Below are positions 272 through 37,828 of a DNA stretch of 37,828 nt, one piece after another. Below the pieces are notes generated by a model. That model saw nothing but the letters and a program-made list of their open reading frames with translations. It searched no databases and was not told the origin of the DNA. Each line of letters starts with the position of its first letter. Positions within the stretch are counted from its first letter, which is position 1. This stretch comes from a virus: positions 1-37,828 of IMG/VR virus record IMGVR_UViG_3300032271_001060; one strand, given 5' to 3'. A program made the translations under genes and the position numbers.

Positions 272-1285
272 TTACAACTCCCAAAACGCTTGCGCGTCAC
301 GCGATGAAACAGCATTCGCATAGGTTGAATACAAAAGCGTGGGGTTGGTGTGACCCATCTCAAAAGCCGTTTCTATAGCATTCCCACTTGATTCAAGCAA
401 CATAGTGGCAAACGTGTGGCGCAGGATGTTGCGCGGGTATTTGGTCATTCCTAGCAATTCCGCAAACTTTGCCCACTGCGGTTCAAACTGCTTTTGGGTC
501 TTGCCCTGGCAAAGCAATCCCTCACCGCGGTGCATGTGCCGGATGAATGCCGGACGCATTTTAATGCTCCTCGGACGAGAAGCATGCCCGCCTTTGCTGT
601 CCTCCCGCCGAATAAGGATTTTGCCATGCTCCCAATCAAGTGCTTGCTCGTGTGAGATCCGTCGAACTTCGCAGGGCCGGATACCGGAGAATAGTCCGCA
701 GACGATCCATGAGCGAAAAAATGTTGGGAACGGGTGATCCAGCAGCACCTTGCACTGGTCCACCGTGAGGATCTCCTGCCTGTATCCTTTGGCCTGCTTT
801 GGTGGGGTTGCTACCCCAAACGGGTTGACTGGGCAAATATCAAGCACCGCAGGCCAATTGTAGAAACTCCGGCAACAGGCAAAGAGGTTAAAGATACCCC
901 TCACTTGCAATGACAATCCTTGCGTCCACCCCTTGATCATTCGCGGGTTAAGGTCACTGACATCCAGCCTTCCAAACTTGTCCACCAGTTTGTTGGTTGC
1001 CCAAACCAATTGCCGATGGGTGTCGTAGCCTACCTCGCGTTTTTTCTCCGCTAAGAATGCTTTCACCAAAACGCGGATCTTGGCTCCCTGTTCGTCGGAT
1101 AAATCAATACTTCCAAGAGATGATTGCAGGCCGAGCTTACAAGACGATTGAAATGCCTCAACCTCGGTTTTGTAGAATAGTTTTTTGCGTGTCCCTCCGG
1201 CAAGACTTGCAGGGATATCAATCATCCAGCACTTCCTTTGGGGGTAGAATCGAGGGGTAAATGCAGTGAAAGATTTGTTTCCCAT
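272..1285 (-). CDS. int: Tyrosine recombinase / integrase
   Basis: This 337-residue protein of the lambda-integrase family would integrate and excise the prophage. The catalytic domain shows Arg I at about residue 203 (SGIRPCEVRR), a Lys-containing loop near 231, box II as N-I-L-R-H near 286-290, His in EMGHTNP near 312 and the nucleophile Tyr at about 322. The first box-II residue is Asn instead of the usual His, a variant I associate with integrases of Verrucomicrobiota and relatives (established family knowledge, recalled, not searched). The N-terminal half contains the arm-binding and core-binding regions. The ATG at 1285 is chosen; a TTG three codons upstream gives a duplicated MGN start. 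Two tandem GTTTCCCAW repeats overlap the start region, and a tRNA 3'-end fragment lies about 110 bp upstream, the usual attP-int arrangement. Confidence 0.95.
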   Translation of the reverse strand: MGNKSFTAFTPRFYPQRKCWMIDIPASLAGGTRKKLFYKTEVEAFQSSCKLGLQSSLGSIDLSDEQGAKIRVLVKAFLAEKKREVGYDTHRQLVWATNKLVDKFGRLDVSDLNPRMIKGWTQGLSLQVRGIFNLFACCRSFYNWPAVLDICPVNPFGVATPPKQAKGYRQEILTVDQCKVLLDHPFPTFFRSWIVCGLFSGIRPCEVRRISHEQALDWEHGKILIRREDSKGGHASRPRSIKMRPAFIRHMHRGEGLLCQGKTQKQFEPQWAKFAELLGMTKYPRNILRHTFATMLLESSGNAIETAFEMGHTNPTLLYSTYANAVSSRDAQAFWEL

Positions 1286-1294
1286 GTTTCCCAA
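1277..1294. repeat. Tandem 9-bp repeats at the integrase start
   Basis: GTTTCCCAT and GTTTCCCAA stand back to back, covering the integrase start codons. The same 9-mer occurs twice more, as an inverted pair, on the other side of the putative attP core. Four copies around an att site suggest arm-type sites for integrase or excisionase; binding is inferred. Confidence 0.5.
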
Positions 1295-1318: not shown

Positions 1319-1332
1319 AACTTCTATACACC
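1319..1332 (-). promoter_or_regulatory. Half-conserved palindrome upstream of the integrase
   Basis: The minus strand reads GGTGTATAG followed by a diverged second half (10 of 14 positions). It ends 34 nt before the integrase ATG and is preceded by CTTG, as at the site at 37318. It is a candidate integrase promoter or operator. Confidence 0.45.
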
Positions 1333-3346: not shown

Positions 3347-3747
3347 TTGGTGACTCCTTTGATTTTTTCAAAGGTGCGATACCCTCCCAGACCCAGCATA
3401 CCGATCAGCACCGTCATCAACGCATCGGCTTGAAGCGGAACAACCGGAGCAGGTTGGTGAGTGACCAGTATATACACCCAAGAAAAAATTGGTTGGCCCA
3501 CAAATTGCCAAGCAAATGCGATGGCACACACCCATCCAACGCATGGTCTCCATCCAGAGACAAACAGGTTGGGAGATCCTGCCTCCACTGCGTTGACTTG
3601 ATTTTGTGCTTGAGACATCTGTGCCTCAAACTCAATGAGCTTGGCCTGCAACTCTGCCTCGATTTTGACCTGCTGGTCGCGGTCGGGAACAAACTTGTTC
3701 ACGATCTGACCGACCGTTGTAACCATTTGGGGTATATCCCAGAGCAT
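3343..3747 (-). CDS. Holin, 3TM family
   Basis: This 134-residue protein matches the three-TM holin family first described from gene transfer agents. A coiled-coil N-terminus (VKIEAELQAKLIEFEAQMSQ) leads to the hallmark NLFVSGWRPCVGWVCAIAFAW and hydrophobic helices at roughly 68-88 and 88-98, then a C-terminal helix with MLGLGGYRTFEKIKG. Such proteins form membrane lesions that release the endolysin. Start ATG at 3747 is chosen because the longer frame begins with an unrelated leader overlapping the upstream gene. It overlaps the endolysin gene, completing a holin-endolysin pair. Confidence 0.88.
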   Translation of the reverse strand: MLWDIPQMVTTVGQIVNKFVPDRDQQVKIEAELQAKLIEFEAQMSQAQNQVNAVEAGSPNLFVSGWRPCVGWVCAIAFAWQFVGQPIFSWVYILVTHQPAPVVPLQADALMTVLIGMLGLGGYRTFEKIKGVTK

Positions 3748-8921: not shown

Positions 8922-8946
8922 GGTGTCAATACACCCACAATCTGTT
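8922..8946 (-). promoter_or_regulatory. Exact palindrome plus AACAGATTG box before the fibre operon
   Basis: The minus strand reads AACAGATTG, TG, then GGTGTATTGACACC, in the gap between the giant virion protein gene and the fibre gene. It ends 18 nt before the fibre ATG. It is one of three copies with an exact palindrome and the upstream box. A promoter with overlapping operator is inferred; which bases contact sigma factor is not clear. Confidence 0.7.
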
Positions 8947-19947: not shown

Positions 19948-19971
19948 GGTGAATATACACCTCAATCTGTT
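19948..19971 (-). promoter_or_regulatory. Palindrome variant plus AACAGATTG box
   Basis: The minus strand reads AACAGATTG, A, then GGTGTATATTCACC (12 of 14 consensus positions). It lies between the tail nozzle stop and the cupin-like gene and ends 20 nt before that ATG. It is a candidate promoter/operator of the ejection-protein unit. Confidence 0.6.
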
Positions 19972-24408: not shown

Positions 24409-24437
24409 GGTGTCAATACACCATACGCAATCTGTTT
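24409..24437 (-). promoter_or_regulatory. Exact palindrome plus AACAGATTG box before the capsid gene
   Basis: The minus strand reads AACAGATTG, a 5-nt gap, then GGTGTATTGACACC. It lies just downstream of the scaffold terminator and 167 nt before the capsid ATG, so it is the obvious place for a capsid promoter. A further AGATGTCCAG stretch upstream is shared with the site at 8922. Confidence 0.72.
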
Positions 24438-24454
24438 CAAACTGGACATCTCAC

Positions 24455-24505
24455 AAAAAGAAACCCCTCCCGATGGAGAACACAAAAAACTCCACCGAGA
24501 GGGGT
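24455..24505 (-). terminator. Strong intrinsic terminator after the scaffold gene
   Basis: The minus-strand transcript can form a 16-bp stem (ACCCCTCTCGGTGGAG with CTCCATCGGGAGGGGT, two G-U pairs) with an 11-nt loop, followed by TTCTTTTTG. It lies 21 nt after the scaffold stop and separates the scaffold and capsid transcripts. Confidence 0.88.
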
Positions 24506-24525
24506 GATCGGAAGCGGGCGAGCAA

Positions 24526-25470: not shown

Positions 25471-25655
25471 TCGGTTTCATGGGGTTGGTGGTTTACTGCT
25501 TCGGAAAGAGGTGGCAATACACCTCCTGCCAAAAACTCGGCATGCTCACTTGGAGAAAAGTTCTCCCTGTGCCACGCGATGAAGGTGGGGTTTTCCCGAA
25601 GGGTTTCGGGCGTTAACTTAGTCTTTCCTTGCGGATGTTTTTTTCGGGGTTTCAT
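25467..25655 (-). CDS. Small basic hypothetical protein
   Basis: This 62-residue protein starts MKPRKKHPQGKTKLTPETLR and has FIAWHRENFSPSEHAEFLAG. No family recognised. It overlaps the preceding gene by 38 nt and the scaffold start by ATGA. Part of its frame carries a near-exact copy of the palindrome (25510-25523), so that DNA is read as both protein and site. It is reasonably likely to be expressed because of tight coupling. Confidence 0.55.
   Translation of the reverse strand: MKPRKKHPQGKTKLTPETLRENPTFIAWHRENFSPSEHAEFLAGGVLPPLSEAVNHQPHETE
25510..25523 (-). promoter_or_regulatory. Near-exact palindrome before the scaffold gene
   Basis: The minus strand reads GGTGTATTGCCACC, one change from consensus. 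It is inside the 62-residue ORF and ends 40 nt before the scaffold ATG. No AACAGATTG box is seen. Confidence 0.5.
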
Positions 25656-25881: not shown

Positions 25882-27635
25882 TACCTCATCATTTGGTTGA
25901 GTTGGGCACCCGCCGCGGTGTCCGGTTTGACGCTGCCGAGCTTCTGGGCGATGTCGGCTTGGTGGGCCTGCTGTTGCATCATGGACTGCTGTTGGGCTGC
26001 CTGTGCCCTTCCTTGCCTTATTTGCGCAATCTGTTGGGGGTCACGCAGGAACTCAGCGTCTCCACCGTTGGCAAGGGTCTTTTCGCGCACAATCTTGTCG
26101 AAGTCGAAGTTGTCTAGGGGTGACATGTCTCCGGTGGCTTGTGCGACCGCTACGGCACCTTGGACAACCTCATCAATGACCTGCACCGAACGTGTTCCAA
26201 CGGCGATGGACATCCGGTTGTTGAAGATCACCTGCGGTTCGGGGATGAAAGGTTCCCCGTTGGGTGCAAGTTGGATCAATGATTCTGGGGGAGGGGGGAG
26301 CAGGCCGCGGCGGGCGAGGATTCCGTAAACCCGTTTCACAATCGGGATCAAGAGTTCGGTTGTGAGTCGGCTATAGGTCGGGGAGATGAGCACGAGTTTC
26401 TCTGACTCCATGGCCCGCACCTGCGTTGCGGTGATGGGGGTTCCACCGCGTTGGGATTCCTCCTGTGCAAACATTTGGAAGAGGGGGACATTGAAAGCCT
26501 CTTCAATGTGGGCCTGCTTCTGTTTGACTCGATCCTGGCCGATGTCGTAGCGACCTTGGGTGGCCCATTCACGGGGGATGGCATTGGGGTCGGCTGCACT
26601 GTAGTAGGTGATCCCTCCGGCACGGAGATCGACATCCCCGTTCATGTCTTCGGGAACGAGCAGGCGCGGGAAGGCCGCGAGTTCCGCTAGGGCATCGAGT
26701 TGCTTTTGGAGGAAATTGAGTTGCTTGGCATCGGGAAGTGCCACCCAGGAGGGTGACCACCCGTAGACAGAGTCCTGCCACTTGAGGAAACGCGACACAA
26801 AGACGGGCTGCTCATCAAACCCACTGTTGCGGAGCACATGCTTGGTGGCCCATTCCACATGGGTCGAGGCAAAAAGTTTGTTCGGGCCATCCTTTTTGCC
26901 TTTGGTGCGTTCTTTCTCGGTGCGGGGACGGATCTCCCAGACCACCTCGATCTTGGTGTCCCAATTCTTGCCATCTCCGGCCTCGTACATCTTGGCAACG
27001 GTGTCCGATACGTTCTCGATCCCGTAGGCTTCCACGAGTTGCCGGACACTCATCTCGCGTTTGACAAGCACGGTATCGACATAGCCCTCGTGGTTTTCAC
27101 TGGCGACGAAGGAACCGACATCAAAGGTCTTGAAGAGAAGTGGACAATACTCTCCCTCGTCCACAAAAACTGCGGTCGTTCCGAAAGCACCCCTATCGAG
27201 GTGGCTTTCATGGATCACGTTGTAGAAGTTTGATCTCCCCAACTCTTCAAGAATGATTTCGGTGCACTCGGCGAAGTATTCGGCGACCCCACCGTCCTCT
27301 TCGATGTTTTCCGGCGCGGCGAGTTGCACCCAATTGGAGTGGGGGTCGTTCACATAGGCCATGATGCCCGCGGCCATGATCTGGTTGGCCCTTACCGCGG
27401 TGGTGTCAAAAAGCTGGGTTTCCCTATCAAGGTTTGGCCCGATCTGCTTGTTTAAAATATACGACTTGCGCGGCATGACGTAGGTGGCAAGGTTCTGCCA
27501 CATGCTCATCCAGTAGGCGCGGGATGCCTCGAGTGCCGACCAGCGGGCAAGGACTGCCGTTGCCACAGAAGTTTTACCAACAACCTCTTTTGGTGTCTTT
27601 ACACCCGTCGAGGTGATTGATCCTTGCTCAAACAT
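25881..27635 (-). CDS. Portal protein (podovirus head-tail connector)
   Basis: This 584-residue protein matches the podophage head-to-tail connector family. Signature parts are ARWSALEASRAYWMSMWQNL, YVMPRKSYILNK, RANQIMAAGIMAYVNDPHSN, VWEIRPRTEKERTKGKKDGP and NFLQKQLDALAELAAFPRLL, then IEEAFNVPLFQMFAQEESQRG and EKLVLISPTYSRLTTELLIP. A Gln-rich tail follows (RAQAAQQQSMMQQQAHQAD). Twelve copies would form the DNA channel at the capsid vertex and dock the terminase. The ATG at 27635 lies just after the proline-rich gene. A near-exact palindrome falls inside codons 11-15. Confidence 0.95.
   Translation of the reverse strand: MFEQGSITSTGVKTPKEVVGKTSVATAVLARWSALEASRAYWMSMWQNLATYVMPRKSYILNKQIGPNLDRETQLFDTTAVRANQIMAAGIMAYVNDPHSNWVQLAAPENIEEDGGVAEYFAECTEIILEELGRSNFYNVIHESHLDRGAFGTTAVFVDEGEYCPLLFKTFDVGSFVASENHEGYVDTVLVKREMSVRQLVEAYGIENVSDTVAKMYEAGDGKNWDTKIEVVWEIRPRTEKERTKGKKDGPNKLFASTHVEWATKHVLRNSGFDEQPVFVSRFLKWQDSVYGWSPSWVALPDAKQLNFLQKQLDALAELAAFPRLLVPEDMNGDVDLRAGGITYYSAADPNAIPREWATQGRYDIGQDRVKQKQAHIEEAFNVPLFQMFAQEESQRGGTPITATQVRAMESEKLVLISPTYSRLTTELLIPIVKRVYGILARRGLLPPPPESLIQLAPNGEPFIPEPQVIFNNRMSIAVGTRSVQVIDEVVQGAVAVAQATGDMSPLDNFDFDKIVREKTLANGGDAEFLRDPQQIAQIRQGRAQAAQQQSMMQQQAHQADIAQKLGSVKPDTAAGAQLNQMMR
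27592..27605 (-). promoter_or_regulatory. Near-exact palindrome within the portal 5' end
   Basis: The minus strand reads GGTGTAAAGACACC, one change from consensus, 30 nt inside the portal coding sequence. This position could act as an internal operator; the encoded residues (GVKTP) do not otherwise require this sequence. It may be chance. Confidence 0.4.
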
Positions 27636-27638
27636 GGA

Positions 27639-28013: not shown

Positions 28014-28348
28014 GCTGCGTAAATAACCTCGCGTCTATACACCCGCAATCTGTTTTTCCTTTCGTACGACACATAGGGCAATTCATGGGTTGCTTGCTTG
28101 AATGCGGACATCATGTCTCCGGCATACAAATACAGGTGCCAGCAGTCCGGTTCCTTGTCCCATGTGTTGTGCCATGGGTTGACGATCTTATCTCCCGATG
28201 CGTCATGGGATACGGGTCTACCCATGCAAAAAAGGTTTGGAGTCGAGACCACCACTCCATGGAGCAGGTGTGCCTCTAAGTCCTGTGCAAAGGTGCGGAC
28301 GCATTCTTCCTGCTCGTAGACTGCTGCGGCTTTAAGGACGGGATTCAT
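27965..28348 (-). CDS. Conserved podophage protein between terminase and portal
   Basis: This 127-residue protein starts MNPVLKAAAVYEQEECVRTF and contains VVVSTPNLFCMGRPV and DCWHLYLYAGDMMSAFKQAT, then LPYVSYERKNRLRVYR. I recall similar proteins at the same place in other podophages, but their function is unknown. The ATG at 28348 is preferred; a GTG at 28363 is possible. The last residues overlap both the next gene and the palindrome site at 28030, so they may be less constrained. Confidence 0.72.
   Translation of the reverse strand: MNPVLKAAAVYEQEECVRTFAQDLEAHLLHGVVVSTPNLFCMGRPVSHDASGDKIVNPWHNTWDKEPDCWHLYLYAGDMMSAFKQATHELPYVSYERKNRLRVYRREVIYAACSKHSLVSYRTSLPS
28030..28054 (-). promoter_or_regulatory. 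Palindrome variant plus AACAGATTG box before the head module
   Basis: The minus strand reads AACAGATTG, CG, then GGTGTATAGACGCG (12 of 14). It ends 17 nt before the ATG of the proline-rich gene, within the 3' end of the upstream gene. It is a candidate promoter/operator for portal and scaffold genes. Confidence 0.6.
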
Positions 28349-28407
28349 GTCGATGCCGTGCACACGTTCATGCCCTCGTGTTTAAATTTCTGGGTTTTGT
28401 GAACATG

Positions 28408-30161: not shown

Positions 30162-30420
30162 CGGTGAGCTTGTCCAATCTGTTGAGCAGTCTTGCAAACT
30201 CAACCGCGGTGATCTCGTTGTCGAAATTGATCTCCATGGGCCAATCATCGGTGTCTCCGCAGTTCTCATGGATGAAAGCGCAGAACCGGATCACCGCGTT
30301 GCGCAGCTTATCGGCATTCAAGAGTTCCCGTTCTAGCTCTCTAGCGTGTTCCAAAATGTTAATCGCCAGTGCCCCGTTGGGTCGCAGGAGTGCATCCGTC
30401 CTGGGGGTCTTGCCACTCAT
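30136..30420 (-). CDS. Hypothetical protein between terminase subunits
   Basis: This 94-residue acidic, helical protein begins MSGKTPRTDALLRPNGALAI, with LEHARELERELLNADKLRNA and FIHENCGDTDDWPMEINFD. The N-terminal TPRTDAL and ELERELN pattern is common in small phage proteins of unknown role. The ATG overlaps the small terminase stop as ATGA, and it ends overlapping the large terminase start, so it is translated with them. Confidence 0.68.
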   Translation of the reverse strand: MSGKTPRTDALLRPNGALAINILEHARELERELLNADKLRNAVIRFCAFIHENCGDTDDWPMEINFDNEITAVEFARLLNRLDKLTDATKEPKG

Positions 30421-30914
30421 TCCACCTTGACCCCACCAATGTAGACATCCACCTCCACGTTGGTCTTGCCGGAGTGCTCGATGTCCAGTTTGTCCCCGTA
30501 CTTCTTGGGGGCGAGTTTGCTCATCACCCACTTGAGGGTGTCCACACGCAGCCGGCTGCGCTGCACATGTTCTGCATGAAGCACGATTCGATCCTGTCCG
30601 GTGCGTTCTGCTTCCTGTATTTCCCAATCGTTGCGACCGTCATGGGCGATCTCTTGGATCTGATCAAGAAATGCATCCGCCTGCTTCTCTCGCGCATGCG
30701 CGTACTGGGTACGAAACGATGGAATCTCATCCAACCACCGGAGGATCGTGGTCTTTGATGGCATGTGCGCTAGTAAACAGATGTGTCGCAGTGATTCACC
30801 ATCTGCGAGGCGACGACAAATCTCCTCGGCCTGCTCCTCTGTAAATGACGATGGCCTTCCCAGCTTCTTTTGGGCGGGCACCAGTGCCTTGGATGCTTTC
30901 TTTTTGGCGGGCAT
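30417..30914 (-). CDS. terS: Terminase small subunit
   Basis: This 165-residue protein has a basic N-terminus (MPAKKKASKALVPAQKKLGR), then SFTEEQAEEICRRLADGESL and MPSKTTILRWLDEIPSFRTQ, which is a helix-turn-helix followed by the helical oligomerisation core (YAHAREKQADAFLDQIQEIA). The C-terminus has SKLAPKKYGDKLDIEHSGKT, the KYG-type ending seen in this family. It recognises phage DNA for packaging. TAATG couples it to DUF3310. It lies two genes ahead of the large subunit. Confidence 0.92.
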   Translation of the reverse strand: MPAKKKASKALVPAQKKLGRPSSFTEEQAEEICRRLADGESLRHICLLAHMPSKTTILRWLDEIPSFRTQYAHAREKQADAFLDQIQEIAHDGRNDWEIQEAERTGQDRIVLHAEHVQRSRLRVDTLKWVMSKLAPKKYGDKLDIEHSGKTNVEVDVYIGGVKVE

Positions 30915-31126
30915 TAACTTGTCAACTCGGTGATGTCGCGTTGGATAAACCAAAGAGCTTTCTTGAGGTCTTGAAGTTCGGTGTCTGGGCCACCTTTTTT
31001 GCCTGCACGATAGATGTATTTGATGGCAGCACCGCGGGTGAATGGCAGGTGACCAATCATGTCGATCAACTCGATCCCCTTGGGATTGTCGGTGTAGTGC
31101 TTGGGGTGGTTGACGGGGTCATTCAC
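30914..31126 (-). CDS. DUF3310 family protein
   Basis: This 70-residue protein matches the DUF3310 (SaV-like) phage family: VNHPKHYTDNPKGIELIDMI, GHLPFTRGAAIKYIYRAGKK and LQDLKKALWFIQRDI. The family is common in phages; its function is not established. There is no ATG. GTG at 31126 is chosen because it is directly before the conserved N-D-P-V-N-H and overlaps the stop of a 15-codon ORF as GTGA. It is the last gene before the packaging genes. Confidence 0.87.
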   Translation of the reverse strand: MNDPVNHPKHYTDNPKGIELIDMIGHLPFTRGAAIKYIYRAGKKGGPDTELQDLKKALWFIQRDITELTS

Positions 31127-31170
31127 GGTTTCATTCCTCGTGACCTTCTGAACTGTTCGTTCGATTGCAT
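31123..31170 (-). other. Possible 15-codon coupling ORF
   Basis: An ATG overlaps the SSB stop as TGATG and opens the 15-residue frame MQSNEQFRRSRGMKP, which ends in a TGA overlapping the DUF3310 GTG start. It bridges the otherwise untranslated gap and may carry ribosomes to the GTG start. It could be fortuitous. Confidence 0.35.
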
Positions 31171-31472
31171 CAGAACGGGATGTCGTCGTTCTCGGTGGAG
31201 TCTTGGTGGACGATGCGCTCGACCTTGGGTGCGGGCGCAGGTGCGTCACCCTTGACCTTGTAGTTGCCAAGGATCTGCACCTTGGTTCCGGCATCACGTT
31301 GCTCCTTCGATAGGGACTGCTTGACGGTGCCATCGTTGTCGTACTTGTCCTTGCCGTTCTCATTTTCCCAACAAATGAGGTTGAGGTAGATTGCCTTGGT
31401 GCCGTCCTGCTTGGTGACTTCTTTGAGGAGGGACTTGTCGATCTTGAGAACGTCGATGGATAGTGTGAACAT
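31170..31472 (-). CDS. ssb: Single-stranded DNA-binding protein
   Basis: This 100-residue protein is small for an OB-fold SSB but has the defining end: a Pro/Ala linker (APAPAPKVERI) leading to acidic E-N-D-D-I-P-F, which in SSBs recruits partner proteins. The body (LSIDVLKIDKSLLKEVTKQD, KAIYLNLICWENENGKDKYD) fits a compact OB fold. It would coat single-stranded DNA during replication and ERF-mediated annealing. It lies between a 56-residue gene and DUF3310 in the replication unit. Confidence 0.82.
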   Translation of the reverse strand: MFTLSIDVLKIDKSLLKEVTKQDGTKAIYLNLICWENENGKDKYDNDGTVKQSLSKEQRDAGTKVQILGNYKVKGDAPAPAPKVERIVHQDSTENDDIPF

Positions 31473-31478
31473 GGTGGG

Positions 31479-31649
31479 TTATGGGTACTTGATGACTGTG
31501 CGGTTTGCTTTCTTTAGGAAAACCTCACCTCTAGGGGTGGAGTCTGCCTTGAGATTCGGGAAGTTGGCGCGGAACACGGGAAAGTTGTCGTGGCGGGCAT
31601 CTCCCTTGCCAACTCGTCTTTCGGAGTGCTGGGTGCGTTGTACGGACAT
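31479..31649 (-). CDS. Small basic hypothetical protein
   Basis: This 56-residue basic protein runs from ATG at 31649: MSVQRTQHSERRVGKGDARH, then FPVFRANFPNLKADSTPRGE and a lysine-rich end. It starts 47 nt after an exact palindrome with an upstream box and stops 6 nt before the SSB ATG, so it would be the first gene of that transcript. No family recognised; the charge suggests nucleic-acid contact. Confidence 0.6.
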   Translation of the reverse strand: MSVQRTQHSERRVGKGDARHDNFPVFRANFPNLKADSTPRGEVFLKKANRTVIKYP

Positions 31650-31695
31650 GTGTTCGGTCTTGATCTATGACAGGTGACAGGTGGAGATTTTACCG

Positions 31696-31720
31696 AGGTG
31701 TCAATACACCGCAACCTGTT
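31696..31720 (-). promoter_or_regulatory. Exact palindrome plus AACAGGTTG box before the SSB unit
   Basis: The minus strand reads AACAGGTTG, C, then GGTGTATTGACACC. It sits just past the helicase loader stop, in the only sizeable gap of the replication region, 47 nt upstream of the 56-residue gene. It is a candidate promoter/operator for SSB, DUF3310 and terminases. Confidence 0.7.
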
Positions 31721-32406
31721 TATGCCTTCACGATCTGGGAAAACTCCTTGAGCCTGCGGAGTATCGCGGTGGCGCGATCCGGTGAGAACATCCCGTGCAG
31801 TCCTTGGGCATCCGAATTACTCGTCCAGATCGTGGGCAACCTGCGACTCGTCCGGTATTCTAGCAGGTCGTATAGCTCGCTTTCGGCGCGGTCGGTCATC
31901 CGGCCCTTGCCCAAATCATCCAAGAGCAACACCTCGGCACTCCGGCACATGGTCAGAATCGAGACCGCGATGGACTTGGTTGCCGGATTGTCCGCAAACT
32001 GGTTGGCAGAGTTGAGTGCCAGATCCGTTGCCGAAATGTAGAAAGTGGTATGACCGTCATCGTGCATCCTCTCAAGCAGCAGCACCGCGGATCGGGTCTT
32101 GCACCGGCCAGATAGTCCAATAAGTCCGATTCCCATGGGGTTGTATTCCCACATTTCGGTCGTCTCCCGTAAACGGGCAGGAATGCGTTCCGGTAGGGTG
32201 TCTAGGTAGATCGGAGGGATCATCTGCTTAAAACGATCCCTACGGGCATTATCGCGCCGTTTTTGGGCATCCTGCTCCGCGTAGGCGATTGCTTTTTCGG
32301 TGCATGGGTCGCACTTGGTGGGTGAGAAAACCACTTTGTTGCCAAATGTGATCGGCTCAAAGGTGAAGGGGGTCGCGCAATCAGCGCATGTGGAGGTCTT
32401 GATCAT
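31720..32406 (-). CDS. DnaC-like helicase loader ATPase
   Basis: This 228-residue protein is an AAA+ ATPase like DnaC/IstB. An N-terminal zinc-binding pair C7-x2-C10 and C32-x2-C35 is followed by a P-loop GLSGRCKT at 97-104, Walker B VLLLDD at 159-164, a sensor I TSNS at 195-198 and an arginine-rich RATAILRRL at 211-219. The P-loop has Cys in place of the second usual Gly before Lys. It would load the host replicative helicase, as the phage has no helicase of its own. It follows the DUF1376 gene with a TGATG overlap, the usual initiator-loader pairing. Confidence 0.88.
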   Translation of the reverse strand: MIKTSTCADCATPFTFEPITFGNKVVFSPTKCDPCTEKAIAYAEQDAQKRRDNARRDRFKQMIPPIYLDTLPERIPARLRETTEMWEYNPMGIGLIGLSGRCKTRSAVLLLERMHDDGHTTFYISATDLALNSANQFADNPATKSIAVSILTMCRSAEVLLLDDLGKGRMTDRAESELYDLLEYRTSRRLPTIWTSNSDAQGLHGMFSPDRATAILRRLKEFSQIVKA

Positions 32407-33029
32407 CAGAATGCGTACTCGGATGGAAGGGTGGAGACGGTTGCCGGCATCGGTGCGTCAATCCGGTTGAGCCAATTGACCACAAACCTTCGGGTCTTTT
32501 GCTTGCCTGGTCGGGTGGATAACCAGGCATCCATCTTGCGGGACTCGGCCTCGATATCTAGGTGGGGGTAATGTCCCTTGATCGAATCAAACCATTCCGC
32601 ATCGGTGAGTTTTTGAGTCGGTTGCGGTTTCACCGCGACTGTCTTCTCTTGAGTATTAAGTGGTGAGTCTTGAGTAGTAAGTAGCAAGCGTTCGCTATGC
32701 GATCGGTCAGCGATCGGTGTGCGTTCGCTATGCGATCGCTTTGACCGTGCAGACTGCCTTGCCTTTTCTGACCGTTCATAAGTTTTAGCAAGTTCCTTAT
32801 CAACAACCGGATGTATGTATCCATTGTCGGTATGGATAAAAAACTCGCGTAGCACCACAAGGACGGTTTCCTCACTCATGCGAACCTTTCTTGCAAGTCC
32901 TTCTAGTGTGATTGGTCGCTCCGTGTCGTATGCAATGTCCAGTAGTCTGCGATAGCACAGATCCTCTTCATTGGTGAGGTGGACAGTTGCGTGTGCGTAT
33001 GCCTTGATGTCGAACTGGTAATAGTGCAT
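32406..33029 (-). CDS. DUF1376 replication initiator-like protein
   Basis: This 207-residue protein has an N-terminal DUF1376 domain (MHYYQFDIKAYAHATVHLTN, EEDLCYRRLLDIAYDTERPI and a winged-helix-like RKVRMSEETVLVVLREFFI), then a charged linker with two SHSER repeats and a C-terminal helical part (KLTDAEWFDSIKGHYPHLDI). DUF1376 proteins sit beside helicase loaders in phages and are believed to initiate replication. The linker DNA holds iteron-like repeats (32647-32740), which suggests that the origin lies in this gene as in lambda O. The start overlaps the methyltransferase stop as TAATG. Confidence 0.87.
   Translation of the reverse strand: MHYYQFDIKAYAHATVHLTNEEDLCYRRLLDIAYDTERPITLEGLARKVRMSEETVLVVLREFFIHTDNGYIHPVVDKELAKTYERSEKARQSARSKRSHSERTPIADRSHSERLLLTTQDSPLNTQEKTVAVKPQPTQKLTDAEWFDSIKGHYPHLDIEAESRKMDAWLSTRPGKQKTRRFVVNWLNRIDAPMPATVSTLPSEYAF
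32647..32740. repeat. Iteron-like repeats, candidate replication origin
   Basis: Two pairs of direct repeats lie within the DUF1376 gene: an exact 18-mer GCGTTCGCTATGCGATCG at 32688 and 32721 (33-bp spacing), and TCTTGAGTAKTAAGT at 32647 and 32668 (21-bp spacing, 14 of 15 identical). A further GCGATCGG copy lies between the 18-mers. Location in the initiator gene and helical spacing resemble the lambda origin. Function is inferred. Confidence 0.45.
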
Positions 33030-33766
33030 TAGCTTAAAACCCTCCATGCTGTTGCTGCCACGATAGGAACCTGGGCATTTCCAAGGCTTTTAATGCGGTC
33101 CACATAATCGGGAACCCCATCACGAGTTCCGTTATAAAAACACTCGCTTTCAGCGGGTCTTTTTCGGATTTCCTCAATCCTTCTGCCAAGTTGGCTCCCC
33201 GATATTCCGGTGATCCTGCGAACCGGTTTCTCGTGGTCCCGCGCCACATGCCGGCTACAGGAGTTGGCAACCAACCAGAACCTGGAGCGGCGATGAGGCA
33301 ACGCGGCGATGTCTGCTCCCAAACGACCCCACCTTGCATCATACCCCATGCCGGCAAGGTCACCGAGGACCATGGCAAGTCCTCCTCCCACAAGTGTTGG
33401 TGTGTTTTCCACGAACACTCTTTTTGGCAATACCTCACCGACGATTCTCGCCATATGCCTCCATAAGCCACTGCGGGAACCTGTAATGTCCCCAGGGATG
33501 TGCTTCCATCGCCTTCCCGCGACACTGATGTCTGTGCAGGGGAAACCTCCGCAAATGACATCGACCTTTCCTCTCCAAGGTTTTCCGTCAAATGTCGCGA
33601 CATCGTCCCAGATGGGGAATCTTGGAAGTGCCCGATCCCGTTGTCTTTGCAAAAGGACGTGCCTGCAGTAGGGGTCAAGTTCAACAGCACACACGGTGGT
33701 ATGTCCGAGAAGGTGCCCGCCGAGGATTCCTCCCCCGATGCCAGCAAATAGGTGTAGCTCATTCAA
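33029..33766 (-). CDS. DNA (cytosine-5)-methyltransferase
   Basis: This 245-residue enzyme has C5-methyltransferase motifs: I as LFAGIGGG near the start, IV as CGGFPCTDIS with the catalytic Cys, VI as FVENTP (usually ENV), VIII as RRSRFWLVAN and X as SLGNAQVPIVAA. It would methylate cytosine using S-adenosylmethionine, probably to protect phage DNA from host restriction. The target-recognition region between VIII and X is very short, giving a minimal enzyme. The frame has no ATG near its start: TTG at 33766 is chosen since GGAGGAG lies about 7 nt upstream, with GTG at 33784 as alternative. A second long ORF occupies almost the same DNA in another frame. Confidence 0.88.
   Translation of the reverse strand: MNELHLFAGIGGGILGGHLLGHTTVCAVELDPYCRHVLLQRQRDRALPRFPIWDDVATFDGKPWRGKVDVICGGFPCTDISVAGRRWKHIPGDITGSRSGLWRHMARIVGEVLPKRVFVENTPTLVGGGLAMVLGDLAGMGYDARWGRLGADIAALPHRRSRFWLVANSCSRHVARDHEKPVRRITGISGSQLGRRIEEIRKRPAESECFYNGTRDGVPDYVDRIKSLGNAQVPIVAATAWRVLS
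33034..33762 (-). CDS. Long overlapping ORF in a second frame of the methyltransferase gene
   Basis: This 242-residue frame lies almost wholly inside the methyltransferase gene on the same strand. Its ATG is directly after the DUF1064 stop, about 10 nt from the same GGAGGAG. The product begins MSYTYLLASGEESSAGTFSD, has LPAWGMMQGGVVWEQTS and GWLPTPVAGMWRG, and ends ITELVMGFPIMWTALKALEM. I recall database proteins near phage cytosine methyltransferases with a similar W-P-T-P and W-L-M-G-W-P-I-G-W-T-D-L-K-P-L region. It may be a real dual-coded protein or a shadow kept open by conserved methyltransferase motifs. I lean only slightly to real. Confidence 0.4.
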   Translation of the reverse strand: MSYTYLLASGEESSAGTFSDIPPCVLLNLTPTAGTSFCKDNGIGHFQDSPSGTMSRHLTENLGEERSMSFAEVSPAQTSVSREGDGSTSLGTLQVPAVAYGGIWRESSVRYCQKECSWKTHQHLWEEDLPWSSVTLPAWGMMQGGVVWEQTSPRCLIAAPGSGWLPTPVAGMWRGTTRNRFAGSPEYRGANLAEGLRKSEKDPLKASVFITELVMGFPIMWTALKALEMPRFLSWQQQHGGF

Positions 33767-34116
33767 AACGTCTCCTCCACCCACATGCCGCGTTTGCGTG
33801 TGAATGCCTTGAACAAGAACATCGGGAATATCTCCGCGGCGAGCTTGATTTTGACCCTAGCATCGTCCTCCCAAAACCCTTTGACCTCGTGGAGTTCGAT
33901 GGTCATGTCGTTGGTCACGACCATGAAGTCGGGGGTGTAGGTGGTTCGGTCGGCAAGCCGGATCTTAATAGGTTCGTACATGAACGACCGGATCTCGCCC
34001 GCGGCTGCCATCAGCGCAAGCGAATCCCTGTACGCGGTTTCTAGCTTGTTCATGGTGCCCGCGACCCGCGGTGCCCGTGCTCGTGCGTATCTCATTCTGC
34101 TGCCTCCACCGTTCAT
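33763..34116 (-). CDS. DUF1064 nuclease-like protein
   Basis: This 117-residue protein matches the DUF1064 phage family, regarded as PD-(D/E)XK-type. After a basic N-terminus (SRMRYARARAPRVAGTMNKL) come helix AYRDSLALMAAAG, YEPIKIRLADRTTYTPDFMV with the catalytic-type PDF, and ELHEVKGFWEDDARVKIKLA with E-x-K. A Holliday-junction or other structure-specific endonuclease role is possible. It overlaps the zinc-finger gene by ATGA, and its last codons form the GGAGGAG that probably serves the next gene. Confidence 0.82.
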   Translation of the reverse strand: MNGGGSRMRYARARAPRVAGTMNKLETAYRDSLALMAAAGEIRSFMYEPIKIRLADRTTYTPDFMVVTNDMTIELHEVKGFWEDDARVKIKLAAEIFPMFLFKAFTRKRGMWVEETF

Positions 34117-34544
34117 ACTCCAACCTCCTCGTCCATCAACTGACCGAAGTCATAAACAGACCTGTAGCGGGATGCAGACATAGCGTCATACTCTCGCCGG
34201 CAATCTACACAGCAAAACCTCTGTGTTCGCTTAGACTTAACAAACTTATCCCGACACAAAGCGCACTTGCCCATTATTTCAGTAGCACCCCTCACAGTGC
34301 GTTGCTGGTCTCTCACTGCCTTATACGAACAATCCTTGGAGCAATACTTTTTAACTCTAGTGTGAGTGGTAAATTTAGACCCGCATTTCCCGCAAATAAG
34401 CTCGATGGTCTCTTTGGCTAATGCTGTCTTCATTCTGGCCCTCTCCTTAATGGCGATGCCCGCGCACTTGTAGGAGCAGGCTTTTTGTGCTGCTTGATTT
34501 GATGCAAATTCCGCATTGCACACTACGCATTTTCTTGGGTTCAT
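34113..34544 (-). CDS. Triple zinc-finger protein
   Basis: This 143-residue protein is built of three Cys4 units: C-V-V-C then CSYKC; C-G-K-C then YCSKDC; and C-A-L-C then CCVDC. Each has a C-x2-C ... C-x3-C pattern as in treble-clef fingers, separated by basic helices (KERARMKTALAKE, KAVRDQQRTVRG). Nucleic-acid binding is likely, with or without HNH-like nuclease; I see no HNH core. The ATG at 34544 overlaps the previous stop. It lies next to DUF1064 and the methyltransferase among DNA-metabolism genes. Confidence 0.72.
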   Translation of the reverse strand: MNPRKCVVCNAEFASNQAAQKACSYKCAGIAIKERARMKTALAKETIELICGKCGSKFTTHTRVKKYCSKDCSYKAVRDQQRTVRGATEIMGKCALCRDKFVKSKRTQRFCCVDCRREYDAMSASRYRSVYDFGQLMDEEVGV

Positions 34545-34858
34545 TGATCCATCTCCTGTCCCTGGGCCTCTCGGATTTCCAAGATGCAGTTTTTGAGCAG
34601 CAGGCACCTTTCGTCATCCTTGGAATGGAACGTCTTGAGGGTCTGGTACTGGTGGTAGAGCAGGCCGATTGCGATCTCAATCGCCTCATGCTTTCCCTCT
34701 GCCACCCCATCGGCATGGCCCAGGCCGTACCCGTGCTTGAATCCGTACTCGCACCGGTCCTTGGGGGTGGGGATGTATTCCTCCGGCGGAACACCTAGGT
34801 GCCGGAGTCCCAGGGTCTGCCAAAACTGCTTCCATTTCGCGTGGATCTTTTCAGTCAT
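34541..34858 (-). CDS. Hypothetical protein
   Basis: This 105-residue protein begins MTEKIHAKWKQFWQTLGLRH, has RCEYGFKHGYGLGHADGVAE and a helical end (LLLKNCILEIREAQGQEMDQ). The G-x-x-x-G repeats (YGFKHGYGLGHADG) resemble those in small helical phage proteins. No family assigned. ATG at 34858 overlaps the wHTH-like stop by 8 nt, and a palindrome variant lies 21 nt upstream. Confidence 0.62.
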   Translation of the reverse strand: MTEKIHAKWKQFWQTLGLRHLGVPPEEYIPTPKDRCEYGFKHGYGLGHADGVAEGKHEAIEIAIGLLYHQYQTLKTFHSKDDERCLLLKNCILEIREAQGQEMDQ

Positions 34859-35159
34859 TGTCTTCGGGGGTTTGGGGTCGTGTATATACACCAAGGACAC
34901 TAGCGTGTCGTTCTGGGCGGGTTGCTTGCCGATAACCGATTCGGGTGACGATCCCTGCGCGGCATGCCGTGAGGAACAATGCACCCATGGCATTGGGGGT
35001 GGGGGGTTCTCCGATCCATTGCCGGACATCCTCCGCGGTGATCTCGTTGCCGTTGGCGACAAGGGTCATGATCACGGAAAGGCCGGAGTCCCTCCATGAC
35101 TGCGGGGTGTTCTTACTCACTCGGTAGACACCAAGGTCTCGTAGGGTGGTGCCGTTCAT
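34851..35159 (-). CDS. Winged-helix-like phage protein
   Basis: This 102-residue protein has SWRDSGLSVIMTLVANGNEI, then ITAEDVRQWIGEPPTPNAMG, ALFLTACRAGIVTRIGYRQA and PERHASVLGVYTR. The helix-turn-helix plus basic loop and beta hairpin resemble small phage proteins that bind DNA in replication or recombination operons. It lies between two hypothetical genes downstream of the exonuclease and is coupled to both by overlaps. A transcription or replication regulator role is possible. Confidence 0.68.
   Translation of the reverse strand: MNGTTLRDLGVYRVSKNTPQSWRDSGLSVIMTLVANGNEITAEDVRQWIGEPPTPNAMGALFLTACRAGIVTRIGYRQATRPERHASVLGVYTRPQTPEDND
34879..34892 (-). promoter_or_regulatory. Palindrome variant within the early operon
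   Basis: The minus strand reads GGTGTATATACACG (12 of 14), near the 3' end of the wHTH-like gene and 21 nt before the next ATG. No AACAGATTG box. The spacing matches that at five other sites. Confidence 0.5.
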
Positions 35160-35482
35160 TTTATAGTGCGCTTGAACTTCCGGCTTTTGAAACCAAGTCG
35201 GGTGCGGATTTGGCAGGCCGGAATCCCGACAAACCGTGCGAGGATGTCGAGTTGTGGAGAGTTGAAGAACCAGATGAGTTCCTCGACTGCTTGCGGGCTT
35301 TCAATGTTGATCGGGCGGTTCCAACTCCCATCTTTTCGCCTGCTCCAGAACTTTTGGTTAACCGTGTGGTCGGGCCGAATGACGGTGAGTCGTCGCAGGT
35401 AGCGATAATCGTCCACTGCCTGCGCCAATATCTCACTGGCAAGTTCGCGGTAGTTGTCCAGGAGGTGGGTTTCATCGGTCAT
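35156..35482 (-). CDS. Conserved hypothetical protein after the exonuclease
   Basis: This 108-residue protein begins MTDETHLLDNYRELASEILA and has QAVDDYRYLRRLTVIRPDHT, QAVEELIWFFNSPQLDILAR and a basic end (CQIRTRLGFKSRKFKRTIK). The NSPQLDILARF stretch occurs in small proteins of phage recombination operons. The function is unknown. It overlaps the exonuclease stop by ATGA and its own stop overlaps the wHTH-like gene start. Confidence 0.7.
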   Translation of the reverse strand: MTDETHLLDNYRELASEILAQAVDDYRYLRRLTVIRPDHTVNQKFWSRRKDGSWNRPINIESPQAVEELIWFFNSPQLDILARFVGIPACQIRTRLGFKSRKFKRTIK

Positions 35483-36411
35483 TTGGATTCAACCAGTGAA
35501 ATTGTGTCCTCTCCAATGGTTGCCGGAATGGGTTCGGTCGTAAGTTCCTTCCAGCGCGCCTTCACTGCCTTGGTGTCCAACCTCTCGGAACCCTTTCGGG
35601 ACTGTATCTTCCATCCGGCTACAGGTGTGCCCGATACAATGGACTCCTTCACAAACCCAGCCACATCCATGTCCTTTTCCACAAGTGCCTGCAGCTTCTT
35701 GTACGCGGTGAGAAAGCGTCCGGCATTCTCCGGCGAAGCAAGGATCCACTCACGGGTAAGTGTTGTCGGCATCGCCGGCATGACCGTTAGTGCTCGCTGA
35801 GCGTCCGGCAACCATACAGGACAAGCTGAACGCTTCGCACACCACCCGCAGTATTTGTTCTCGCGGGGGGGGTCGCTCTTTGCAGTGACCCTTGAAATAA
35901 TGCCATCCACCATGGACTTGGTGGCATCGTATTGCCACGAGTGGATGTGATCCTCTCCGGTGTCGATCCCGACGATCACCGAGATTGCGGATGTTGCACC
36001 CTCCCGATCCATGAGCATGAGGGCATACACACCCATCTGCTCAAAGTAGGAGTTGGGATCCTCTAGTCGACCGGACTTGTAATCCACCAAAACCAGGGTC
36101 TTCTCATCCCCCTCGCCATGGTAGCCCCACATGTCCGCGGTTCCGAAGGTGATCTCATTTAGCTCACCGTCAATGTAGGTGAGGCGCGACTCCACTCCGC
36201 GGATGTCGGAAATAAACTCCTTCGCCCGCGCATAAGCCGATGCTGCTCCGGCATCCTGGATTGGGGTGCCCTTGGTGTGATGTTGCTCAATTGCCTCGTG
36301 CAGTTCGGTTCCGCGTTTGGCAGCAGGTCCGGCAACGGGGTTGGACTTGTACTCAATGCAAAGGTTGAGCTTTGGAAACGACGAAGGAGACAGGGATTCG
36401 TGGTGACTCAT
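35479..36411 (-). CDS. PD-(D/E)XK exonuclease, RecB/Cas4-like
   Basis: This 310-residue nuclease starts MSHHESLSPSSFPKLNLCIE and shows RGTELHEAIE (His38), FGTADMWG (Asp93), VLVDYKSGR (Asp110, Lys112) and QMGVYA (Gln125, Tyr129), the RecB/DUF2800-type catalytic set. C18, C188, C191 and C197 (NKYCGWCAKRSACPVW) are placed as in AddB and Cas4 Fe-S nucleases. It would resect double-stranded ends to produce single strands for the ERF annealing protein, which is directly upstream and overlaps by ATGA. The ATG at 36411 is chosen for this coupling. Confidence 0.88.
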   Translation of the reverse strand: MSHHESLSPSSFPKLNLCIEYKSNPVAGPAAKRGTELHEAIEQHHTKGTPIQDAGAASAYARAKEFISDIRGVESRLTYIDGELNEITFGTADMWGYHGEGDEKTLVLVDYKSGRLEDPNSYFEQMGVYALMLMDREGATSAISVIVGIDTGEDHIHSWQYDATKSMVDGIISRVTAKSDPPRENKYCGWCAKRSACPVWLPDAQRALTVMPAMPTTLTREWILASPENAGRFLTAYKKLQALVEKDMDVAGFVKESIVSGTPVAGWKIQSRKGSERLDTKAVKARWKELTTEPIPATIGEDTISLVESK

Positions 36412-37064
36412 GCTGCCACCTCCGTTCCGAATGCGTAAGCCACGACATCGGCCCACTTGGTGCAGAGACCTTTTAAGAAGTTGACCGGAAGGTCGCGGAC
36501 GTACTCAGCTTCAACACTTGCTCCCTTTTCGGAAAGATAAGCAAAAATGTCGGCCTCGGACACCTTGTCGGTATCCATGCGCTTGAACACTTCGCTTGAC
36601 CAATCCTTTGCAGGTGCTTTTGGTGCCGTTGCAACTTTTGCCGCGGCAATCTTCTGCGCGGGTGCCGCTGCCTGCTCCGGCTTGCATGCCTCGTTGCCAT
36701 CATCGTCGGACGCACTCAAACTCAGCAGACTCTGCAAAGAATACCGTCTCTGATAACTGCAAGCAGAACCGAGTCCCTGCATGTCGTGTTTGGCTACGAT
36801 CAACGGTGCCGTGGTTTCGATGAACTCGCCACTCTCGTGGAGAAGAATCGTCGTGAGGGTGTTGTCCCCCAAAAGTTGCAGGACGCTCAGACCGACATTG
36901 GCTAGGGGGATTCTGATGACTTCCAAGATCCCGCTAAGATCGGCAAAGCGATTCTTGAAATGAGGATTCTGGGCATTCTTGACGATGGCGGGTGCCGTTG
37001 CGTGGAACTTCGCCAGTGCTTTGGCAAGTGCCGTTATTGACTCTGACCGACTCATGTTGCTCAT
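36408..37064 (-). CDS. erf: ERF-family single-strand annealing protein
   Basis: This 218-residue protein matches the ERF recombinase family: ALAKFHATAPAIVKNAQNPH, FKNRFADLSGILEVIRIPLA, LSVLQLLGDNTLTTILLHES and then GLGSACSYQRRYSLQSLLSL followed by SASDDDGNEA. It anneals complementary single strands in phage recombination. A linker rich in Ala/Pro (AAAPAQKIAAAKVATAPKAP) leads to a small C-terminal helical domain. The ATG at 37064 is preferred; an upstream alternative start adds 22 residues of unrelated character. Confidence 0.93.
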   Translation of the reverse strand: MSNMSRSESITALAKALAKFHATAPAIVKNAQNPHFKNRFADLSGILEVIRIPLANVGLSVLQLLGDNTLTTILLHESGEFIETTAPLIVAKHDMQGLGSACSYQRRYSLQSLLSLSASDDDGNEACKPEQAAAPAQKIAAAKVATAPKAPAKDWSSEVFKRMDTDKVSEADIFAYLSEKGASVEAEYVRDLPVNFLKGLCTKWADVVAYAFGTEVAA

Positions 37065-37089
37065 GGGTTTCGTGTTTTGGGTTGTGTCC

Positions 37090-37203
37090 TTACGGACGGG
37101 TTGTTGACCGAATCTTTGGTTCTGAACCACTGAAAGGGCAGGGGCGCGGGCGATAGCCGACGAAGCGCAGGTAGGCTTCCCAGAGGCGGGTGAGGTACTT
37201 CAT
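37090..37203 (-). CDS. Small basic ORF
   Basis: This 37-residue frame starts at an ATG overlapping the previous stop as ATGA: MKYLTRLWEAYLRFVGYRPR, then PCPFSGSEPKIRSTTRP. It is basic with an amphipathic N-terminus. No family recognised. The coupling on its 5' side and lack of another gene in the gap support expression. Confidence 0.4.
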   Translation of the reverse strand: MKYLTRLWEAYLRFVGYRPRPCPFSGSEPKIRSTTRP

Positions 37204-37301
37204 CGGGTGAAGCGGGTGACGATCCATGTGAGGATCTCTGCGGCTTCCTCGCGGCATAGGACGAGGGTTGCGGTGGTGACGAGTAGGAGTAGTGCGATCA
37301 T
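37200..37301 (-). CDS. Tiny membrane protein
   Basis: This 33-residue frame has a hydrophobic N-terminus (MIALLLLVTTATLVL) and a helical rest (CREEAAEILTWIVTRFTR), so it would be a single-pass membrane peptide. It starts 17 nt after an exact palindrome and overlaps the next small ORF by ATGA. It could be an exclusion or regulatory peptide; none is proven. Confidence 0.45.
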   Translation of the reverse strand: MIALLLLVTTATLVLCREEAAEILTWIVTRFTR

Positions 37302-37317
37302 GTGTTTTGTGGGTTGA

Positions 37318-37331
37318 GGTGTCTATACACC
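37318..37331 (-). promoter_or_regulatory. Exact palindrome between the excisionase-like gene and the recombination operon
   Basis: The minus strand reads GGTGTATAGACACC, preceded by CTT. It lies 17 nt before the tiny membrane protein ATG and so fronts the ERF-exonuclease operon. There is no AACAGATTG box, which may separate early from later sites. Confidence 0.65.
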
Positions 37332-37335
37332 AAGA

Positions 37336-37563
37336 TTAAATAGAAGGAGATTCAACCAAGGCATCCAGGTCAGTGATTTTGATCAAGCGGGTGCGTCCCA
37401 GCTTGTGAAACCGGAGGGATCCATTGCTCATGAGCTTGTAAATGAACGCGGTGGTCACGCTGAGTCGGGTCGCGGCGTGATTGGGTCGAAGGTACTTGGG
37501 TTCGCTATATACACCCTTCTTAAATAGAGAGGGCTTGGTGGTTGGTGTAACGGGTGTTGTCAT
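37336..37563 (-). CDS. Excisionase-like / MerR-type HTH protein
   Basis: This 75-residue protein has a helix-turn-helix-wing pattern, YLRPNHAATRLSVTTAFIYK, LMSNGSLRFHKLGRTRLIKI and TDLDALVES, as in the HTH_17/excisionase family. Such proteins bend attachment-site DNA to direct excision or act as repressors. It overlaps the RHH gene by ATGA, making a two-gene regulatory unit at the right edge. A weak palindrome (9 of 14) lies inside it at 37502-37515. A role as excisionase is plausible because the integrase is in the same genome, though the gene is far from attP in this linear map and would be near only if the map is circular. Confidence 0.8.
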   Translation of the reverse strand: MTTPVTPTTKPSLFKKGVYSEPKYLRPNHAATRLSVTTAFIYKLMSNGSLRFHKLGRTRLIKITDLDALVESPSI

Positions 37564-37709
37564 TTTGATTTCTTTTTCTTTTCTAGGGATTCGGTAACGG
37601 GAAGTTTCAAGAATTCACTTTTGTTCAGACCAGACCTGCGAACCAGCAATGCTAGTTCCTTCAACTCTGCAGGGTCTAGCCACAAGGTCACGAGCTTCTT
37701 TCCTTTCAT
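37560..37709 (-). CDS. Ribbon-helix-helix DNA-binding protein
   Basis: This 49-residue protein has a basic start, a beta strand KLVTLWL, helix PAELKELALLVRRSG and a second helix after G-L-N-K-S-E-F-L-K, the standard ribbon-helix-helix (CopG/Arc type) layout. RHH dimers bind inverted repeats in DNA. It is the first gene read from the right, 31 nt downstream of a near-exact palindrome, and is translationally coupled to the excisionase-like gene. It is therefore a leading candidate to bind the palindromes, including its own promoter. The ATG at 37709 is used; a GTG six codons upstream is possible. The longer overlapping frame at 37615-37815 is rejected. Confidence 0.72.
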   Translation of the reverse strand: MKGKKLVTLWLDPAELKELALLVRRSGLNKSEFLKLPVTESLEKKKKSK

Positions 37710-37739
37710 TCTTGAATTTGGCACAACCCAAACTTGGAT

Positions 37740-37753
37740 CGTGTATAGACACC
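37740..37753 (-). promoter_or_regulatory. Near-exact palindrome upstream of the RHH gene
   Basis: The plus strand reads CGTGTATAGACACC, so one of 14 positions differs from consensus. It ends 31 nt before the RHH ATG. This fits autoregulation by the RHH protein, which is inferred. Confidence 0.6.
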
Positions 37754-37814
37754 TGTAAAGGTTTATTTTGCATAGTTGAATATGGAAGAGGCGAAACGGA
37801 CATCAATAATTCCA

Positions 37815-37828
37815 CCCCCCCCCCCCCC
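37815..37828. repeat. Right-edge C homopolymer
   Basis: The last 14 bases are C. The base before is A, and the run has the same polarity as the left-edge run. See the left-edge entry for interpretation. Confidence 0.8.

Follow-up and report, generated by a model that had tools for sequence, protein, structure and literature searches.

A 54-residue RHH protein as the candidate autoregulated repressor of a genome-wide set of palindromic sites in a freshwater podovirus

The RHH proteins Arc and Mnt of phage P22 and CopG of plasmids are autoregulated and bind two half-sites about 9-11 bp apart, and they regulate one or two promoters locally rather than genome-wide networks. In the archaeal fusellovirus SSV1, the RHH lysogeny regulator F55 (55 aa) keeps the carrier state; its site, the 11-mer ATAGATAGAGT, is found in several copies in a handful of promoters, among them early ones and that of F55 itself (PMC9608457). 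The repressor of phages L5 and TipsytheTRex, a two-domain HTH monomer on an asymmetric 13-mer, has more than 20 sites genome-wide, in promoters and in short intergenic gaps, oriented with transcription, and at these operators and stoperators it was proposed to block both initiation and elongation (PMC9283540). MrpR of SPbeta has a tyrosine-recombinase fold and recognizes a 15-bp element, SPBRE, with peaks in promoter regions (PMC10516654). LUZ100, T7-like but with temperate features, has an RNA polymerase of its own, and a MarR-like repressor was proposed to act there at one promoter (PMC10134795). A full-text literature search, which reached few subscription papers, returned no tailed phage in which an RHH protein serves as the master repressor of a site network.

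Here, we analyzed a freshwater phage sequence, an IMG/VR virus record 37,828 bases long (hereafter the window, meaning the whole of this stretch) together with relatives among metagenomic viral contigs, which were gathered by TerL, RHH and HTH_17 searches. The minus strand carries every recognizable gene of the window, including those for Erf, an exonuclease, a DnaC-like loader, terminase, a T7-type portal, capsid, tail tubular proteins, a tail fibre, holin and endolysin, with a tyrosine integrase at the far end. A gene for a C5-cytosine DNA methyltransferase lies in the replication region (33029-33784; PF00145, E=4e-22). By terminase, HTVC010P-type podoviruses (Pelagibacter phages and Rhodoferax phage P26218) are among the nearest isolates, at 32-38% identity. 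The gene content points to a phage with T7-type head and tail genes but without a recognizable RNA polymerase of its own: a search for single-subunit polymerases gave no PF00940 match, the control genomes being likewise silent, and there was no PHROG polymerase match among the ORFs scanned. The window resembles LUZ100 in joining T7-type virion genes to temperate features and a proposed small repressor, and differs from it in that LUZ100 encodes a polymerase and uses a MarR-like protein at one promoter.

Poly-C runs stand on the plus strand at 1-20 and 37816-37828, which fits a single long C/G homopolymer at which the assembly of a circular genome broke; on the circle, it would separate a small minus-strand ORF (3-143) from the RHH promoter. 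In the relative G021, a (GGAAC)n repeat occupies the place of the poly-C (L074, about 9711-9746); thus, the stretch directly preceding the repressor promoter may hold a simple repeat that changes fast. Once the genome is circular, the integrase gene lies just upstream of the RHH module, by the module order in relatives.

The first-pass annotation of this locus had described an RHH gene of 49 residues, coupled by ATGA to an excisionase-like gene and flanked by palindromes. The ATGA overlap was confirmed at 37560-37563 on the minus strand, and the excisionase-like product matched HTH_17 above the cut-off. The RHH gene itself also stood, but its length probably needs correction: translation is more likely to begin at the GTG codon, giving 54 residues, because the relatives all begin with MPNQR or MSNQR and the window frame reads (V)PNSRMKGKK. 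Taken alone, the window protein matched PF01402 with E=1e-3, slightly below the cut-off. However, this weak call is secured by its homologs, which exceeded the cut-offs for RHH-fold families (NikA-like, Antitox_RHH and RHH_1), and by profile matches to CopG, ORF56, ParG, AvtR and NikA, so that the protein can be assigned to the RHH fold by sequence. A monomer model of medium confidence has helices at residues 18-31 and 35-53, with the strand not formed in the monomer, and a Foldseek search with this model returned mostly RHH proteins, at poor E-values. W15 is invariant in all RHH rows, and the GGTG/CACC arms are invariant in the best sites. The fold and the proposed autoregulation are those of Arc, Mnt and CopG; the genome-wide sites described below are unlike them. 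The protein was also considered as an antitoxin or, from the NikA-like match, as a relaxosome protein, which we rejected because no toxin or relaxase family was present among the ORFs scanned. As a single query, the window protein found no match in viral contigs, and relatives were found only with an alignment; the RHH protein of the relative G003 had no match in 50,697 phage records, and no RHH relatives were found in bacterial genomes.

The order integrase, RHH, HTH_17 and small membrane ORF is kept in relatives, with all module genes on one strand and sites at the same three places. The integrase gene lies a short way upstream of the RHH gene in most RHH genomes (G001, G002, G004, G017, G018, G020 and G021). 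G001, G002, G004 and G021 are continuous where the window is broken and read integrase and then RHH; in G021, the small ORF found between the two is also present at the left edge of the window. In G003, the integrase and RHH genes are at opposite ends of the contig. The annotation had further suggested lysogeny control without a CI-type repressor, and this held at the genome junction, since no CI gene lies across the broken ends in the relatives intact there. Additionally, HTH_3 (PF01381) and Peptidase_S24 (PF00717) had no match in nine genomes, whereas the search controls were positive. A CI/LexA-type switch, with an HTH_3 or S24 repressor usually divergent from the lytic operon, therefore appears to be absent on sequence grounds. 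As a separate observation, G017 (L067, 10001-10304) has two tandem RHH genes before a different HTH gene, and its only two sites adjoin these genes.

The two flanking palindromes turned out to be members of a larger set, about 13 sites spread over the window, with the 14-bp consensus GGTGT-N4-ACACC (Table 1), comprising sites A to K and the weak half-sites L (3465) and M (1319). The earlier description of the pair needed adjustment. The downstream palindrome (37318-37331, GGTGTCTATACACC), called exact, matches at six of seven pairs, both 5-bp arms being exact; the upstream one (37740-37753, CGTGTATAGACACC), called near-exact, is upheld as a site but matches at only five of seven pairs. A third site of the same kind, at 37502-37515 in the HTH_17 coding sequence, had been missed, and the annotation had described neither the placing of sites in promoter spacers nor their presence within coding sequence.

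Table 1. Genes of the module and members of the repeated site set, in window coordinates.
Feature	Position	Strand	Sequence	Description
RHH gene	37560..37724	-		GTG start probable, 54 aa; alternative ATG 37709, 49 aa
HTH_17 (excisionase-like) gene	37336..37563	-		75 aa; PF12728, E=4e-8; kept in relatives
Membrane-type ORF	37206..37307	-	MIALLLLVTTATLVL...	33 aa; directly downstream of site C; 82-97% identical in G001/G002
Tyrosine integrase gene	272..1294	-		phrog_1, E=2.5e-22; PF00589, E=6e-6, slightly below cut-off
Site A	37740..37753	-	GGTGTCTATACACG (minus strand)	Putative operator in RHH promoter spacer
Site B	37502..37515	-	GGTGTATATAGCGA	In HTH_17 coding sequence (GVYSE); right arm diverged in window
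Site C	37318..37331	-	GGTGTATAGACACC	Between HTH_17 stop and small membrane ORF
Site D	34879..34892	-	GGTGTATATACACG	3' end of ORF 34851-35159, about 20 nt before next ATG; kept in G001 and G002
Site E	31697..31710	-	GGTGTATTGACACC	Spacer of TTGCGG-N16-TAAAAT, after DnaC-like gene; N17 in G001
Site F	28030..28043	-	GGTGTATAGACGCG	Spacer of promoter TTGCGG-N17-TATTTA
Site G	27592..27605	-	GGTGTAAAGACACC	In portal gene N-terminus (GVKTP)
Site H	25510..25523	-	GGTGTATTGCCACC	Coding (GGVLPP), about 40 nt upstream of next gene; DNA identical in seven genomes
Site I	24409..24422	-	GGTGTATTGACACC	Spacer of TTGCGT-N17-TAGAAC, upstream of major capsid gene
Site J	19948..19961	-	GGTGTATATTCACC	Spacer of TTGAGG-N17-TAAAAC, after tail tubular protein B
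Site K	8922..8935	-	GGTGTATTGACACC	Spacer of TTGTGG-N17-TAAAAA, upstream of tail fibre gene
Site L	3465..3478	-	GGTGTATATACTGG	Weak, left half only; holin gene, upstream of endolysin gene; kept in G001 and G002
Site M	1319..1332	-	GGTGTATAGAAGTT	Weak, left half only; immediately upstream of integrase gene; related half-site in G003 and G004

Allowing up to three mismatches, the consensus matched 12 times in the window compared with 3.17 +/- 1.83 in shuffles, and none of 100 shuffles reached 12. In a search over 2816 combinations of half-site and spacing (all 4-base half-sites), GTGT-N4-ACAC ranked first among the over-represented inverted repeats of the window (7 versus 0.41 expected, p=3e-7). 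The site also has a directional reading, GGTGTA[TA][AT][GT][AC], nearly all copies of which lie on the gene strand: the counts on the gene strand and the other strand were 11 and 1 in the window, 8 and 1 in G001, 8 and 0 in G002, 11 and 1 in G003, and 13 and 2 in G004, with about 0.15 expected, although orthologous sites are not independent and the counts across relatives are not to be multiplied. G001-G004 and G021 carry counterparts of sites A, B and C at the corresponding positions. Neither intrinsic terminators nor folded RNAs explain the set, as no terminator-like stem listed in a scan of 23000-37828 coincides with a network site and no Rfam match was obtained. At 1319-1332, upstream of the integrase gene, CAACTTGGTGTATAGAAGTTG combines the half-site with a separate 6-bp inverted repeat and may belong to a region to which integrase or excisionase binds.

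Six of the sites lie in promoter spacers, and many of these promoters have the form TTG...TANNNN. The window promoter around site A reads TTTACA (37759-37754)-N17-CAAGTT (37736-37731), with a poor -10 element, and the same geometry is found in G001-G004 and G021; in G003, the promoter reads TTGACA-GGTGTATATACTTCTAC-TAGTTT and its 17-bp spacer is filled by the site. A late site in G021 lies within TTGCAG-N17-TACAAT. Over 23 sites from four genomes, likeness to the -10 sequence TATAAT after the upstream TTG peaked at a distance of exactly 17 (4.17 versus a background of 2.25, p<1e-5; 0 of 100,000 random-offset draws reached the peak). Among sites with a good -10 element, the offset of the site from the TTG ranges from 4 to 8 nt while the -10 element stays at 17; therefore, the site is an element laid over the promoter. 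The peak is relative to this upstream TTG and not to the TTGACA within GGTGTATTGACACC, and the site itself was rejected as a -35 box since the late sites have no -10 element at the right distance from it. Promoters of a T7-type polymerase were likewise set aside because no polymerase was found, though the control of that search was silent. Because the site falls within the 16-17-bp spacer of a sigma70-type promoter, we propose that its binding blocks initiation, although a promoter-spacer site could also serve an activator. The anatomy of the F55 system, with sites in its own promoter and in other promoters, is matched by the window RHH protein, whose function here is predicted.

A conserved block, AACAGRTTG, overlaps the -35 region of the five late promoters (8922, 19948, 24409, 28030 and 31697) but not the promoter at site A. 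This pattern suggests that a second regulator exists, and the block may be the target of a late activator. T7-like phages place late promoters where the window sites lie. With the block that precedes the five late sites, this placement counts for a reading in which the sites are promoters or binding elements of another phage or host factor, such as a late activator or an unusual sigma factor, and the RHH protein is a passenger. We consider that reading very improbable: some sites are promoterless and lie inside genes with frozen codons, the N4 spacing gives way to N2 or N5 as the RHH protein changes, and GGTGG-type sites accompany a changed RHH protein.

The remaining full sites are found outside recognizable promoters. 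Three of them (B, G and H) are inside genes, and the other two (C and D) are near gene starts without a promoter-like context. Across all six genomes compared, the portal gene keeps one codon at only 12 of 164 fully conserved degenerate residues. At site G, however, the residues G, V and T are all codon-frozen, whereas neighboring residues of the N-terminal tail vary, which points to selection on the DNA rather than on the protein. At the positions of two window sites, the more distant relative G018 carries the variants GGTGGCATCACACC at the portal N-terminus (site G) and GGTGGCATGCCACC after the portal, in gpX (site H). Several sites encode GV-T-P, as expected if the set were a chance or coding artefact of GVYTP-like peptides, but the shuffle counts, the intergenic position of the majority of sites, the frozen synonymous codons and the conservation over seven genomes leave that explanation a negligible probability. 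In having many sites, in promoters and elsewhere, oriented with transcription (11 versus 1 in strand bias), the window is like L5; unlike L5, it would use an RHH protein on a near-palindrome, and some of its sites are within coding sequence.

The relatives allowed us to ask which protein reads these sites. G001 and G002 have roughly 75-92% identity to the window in shared DNA; the share of portal residues in common with the window is 67-80% for G003, G004, G009 and G021, 49% for G018 and 50% for G005. In our computational comparison, every genome with this RHH family also had sites, and site sequence and spacing changed together with the RHH protein, through GGTGT-N4, GGTGG-N4, GGTGT-N2 and N5 forms. 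G018, whose RHH position 13 is Q and not T, has 13 GGTG-N6-CACC sites, mostly of the GGTGG type, compared with 1.25-2.6 expected. G019 has five GGTGT-N2-ACACC sites and G020 has four GGTG-N5-CACC sites. This co-variation covers about six distinct RHH variants, which entered the comparison as matches of RHH searches. TerL and HTH_17 searches supplied G005 and G022; both have integrase and HTH_17 genes, but their RHH slot is taken by another small protein and they carry no such site.

Since the sites co-vary with the RHH protein and are absent from G005 and G022, the RHH protein most likely reads the network, as the annotation had proposed when it named this protein the best local candidate. An RHH dimer on short inverted repeats is a candidate arrangement consistent with the same co-variation. 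HTH_17, a MerR/Xis-like protein, was weighed as the reader, with some other role left to the RHH protein. MerR regulators bind palindromes in promoter spacers, and site B lies within the HTH_17 gene. However, the window spacers are 17 bp compared with the 19-20 bp of MerR promoters, G017 and G020 carry RHH genes and sites without a close HTH_17 homolog, and G005 and G022 have HTH_17 but no sites, so that we rejected HTH_17 as reader and regard this explanation as improbable.

Two further repeats were set aside. In G005 (L053, minus strand, about 20150-20560), different RHH-like genes occupy the RHH slot, and an exact palindrome, GGTTCAGTGAACC, stands in the promoter-like spacer before them, with a second copy just after. 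This slot has the same architecture as the window with a different protein and site, and it is local only (12 matches versus 15.9 expected genome-wide). TAACG-N7-CGTTA repeats at locus L094 of a Verrucomicrobia MAG are also clustered and local.

Overall, we propose a putative mechanism, to which we assign a probability of about 0.68, in which the phage is a temperate podovirus whose RHH protein, an autoregulated repressor, acts through spacer operators and roadblock sites. We infer that RHH dimers, probably two per site, bind GGTGT-N4-ACACC directly. At site A and at the five late promoters (E, F, I, J and K), the protein bound in the spacer would block initiation. Sites B, C, D, G and H, in or between genes and without a recognizable promoter, would serve as roadblocks to elongation. 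With B and C right behind the RHH gene, a prophage could make RHH from its own damped promoter while these two sites hold back read-through into Erf, the exonuclease and the replication genes. Lysogeny would then be the state that the network maintains. Several observations weigh against this mechanism: the poor -10 element at site A of the window, the AACAGRTTG block confined to the late promoters, the two local sites of G017, the many late sites of G003 and G004 that keep the left arm plus GTATATAC only, and the failure to find a lysogen or prophage in the genomes scanned (below).

The main rival is that the RHH protein is a timing regulator of the lytic cycle, made early, which damps its own operon and holds the late promoters until replication titrates it off roughly 13 sites per genome copy. 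The RHH gene comes first in an apparent early operon that runs in the same direction as every lytic gene, a high number of sites per genome would favor titration, and scans with RHH and TerL found no lysogen or prophage of this exact phage in 84,980 genomes, the best cellular match by terminase being a Verrucomicrobia MAG (56%), a weak hint of a host in the Verrucomicrobiota. Nevertheless, we think lytic timing unlikely. The integrase gene lies close by in most RHH genomes, sites within coding sequence suggest that elongation has to be stopped, as in immunity of the L5 type, and no separate immunity repressor of the HTH_3 or S24 type was found in the nine genomes.

As a repressor of lysogeny, the RHH protein would resemble several described regulators in part. 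Like F55, it is a tiny RHH protein with a short site repeated in promoters, its own included; unlike F55, which comes from an archaeal virus, it has sites inside genes, described only here as far as the available part of the SSV1 account goes, and the likeness is one of fold, size and site arrangement. Like MrpR, it is proposed as a non-CI master repressor with an element repeated in many phage promoters, whereas MrpR has a tyrosine-recombinase fold and a 15-bp element. No homolog of L5 gp71, with HTH and stoperator domains, was present among the annotated ORFs. By analogy, the window system resembles a combination of the F55 and the L5 operator/stoperator features in a different phage group. 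We also advance, tentatively and at somewhat under even odds, a wider statement: in an aquatic temperate podovirus family, one 54-residue RHH protein is the only immunity repressor, acting through spacer operators and coding roadblocks, and arm sequence and spacing re-evolve with the protein and define immunity groups.

If this is true, silencing of a whole tailed-phage genome would be achieved in a minimal form, with one very small protein and about 13 sites replacing a lambda-type switch, and RHH recognition would be paired with stoperators of the L5 kind in phages of T7-like build. The case would further suggest how virion modules of the T7 type that lack a polymerase of their own can live as prophages. 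Moreover, the N2, N4 and N5 spacings and the GGTGT and GGTGG arms form a natural series: at fixed positions in the genome, the operator changes along with its repressor, so that tiny proteins and synthetic sites allow a direct test of how immunity specificity evolves.
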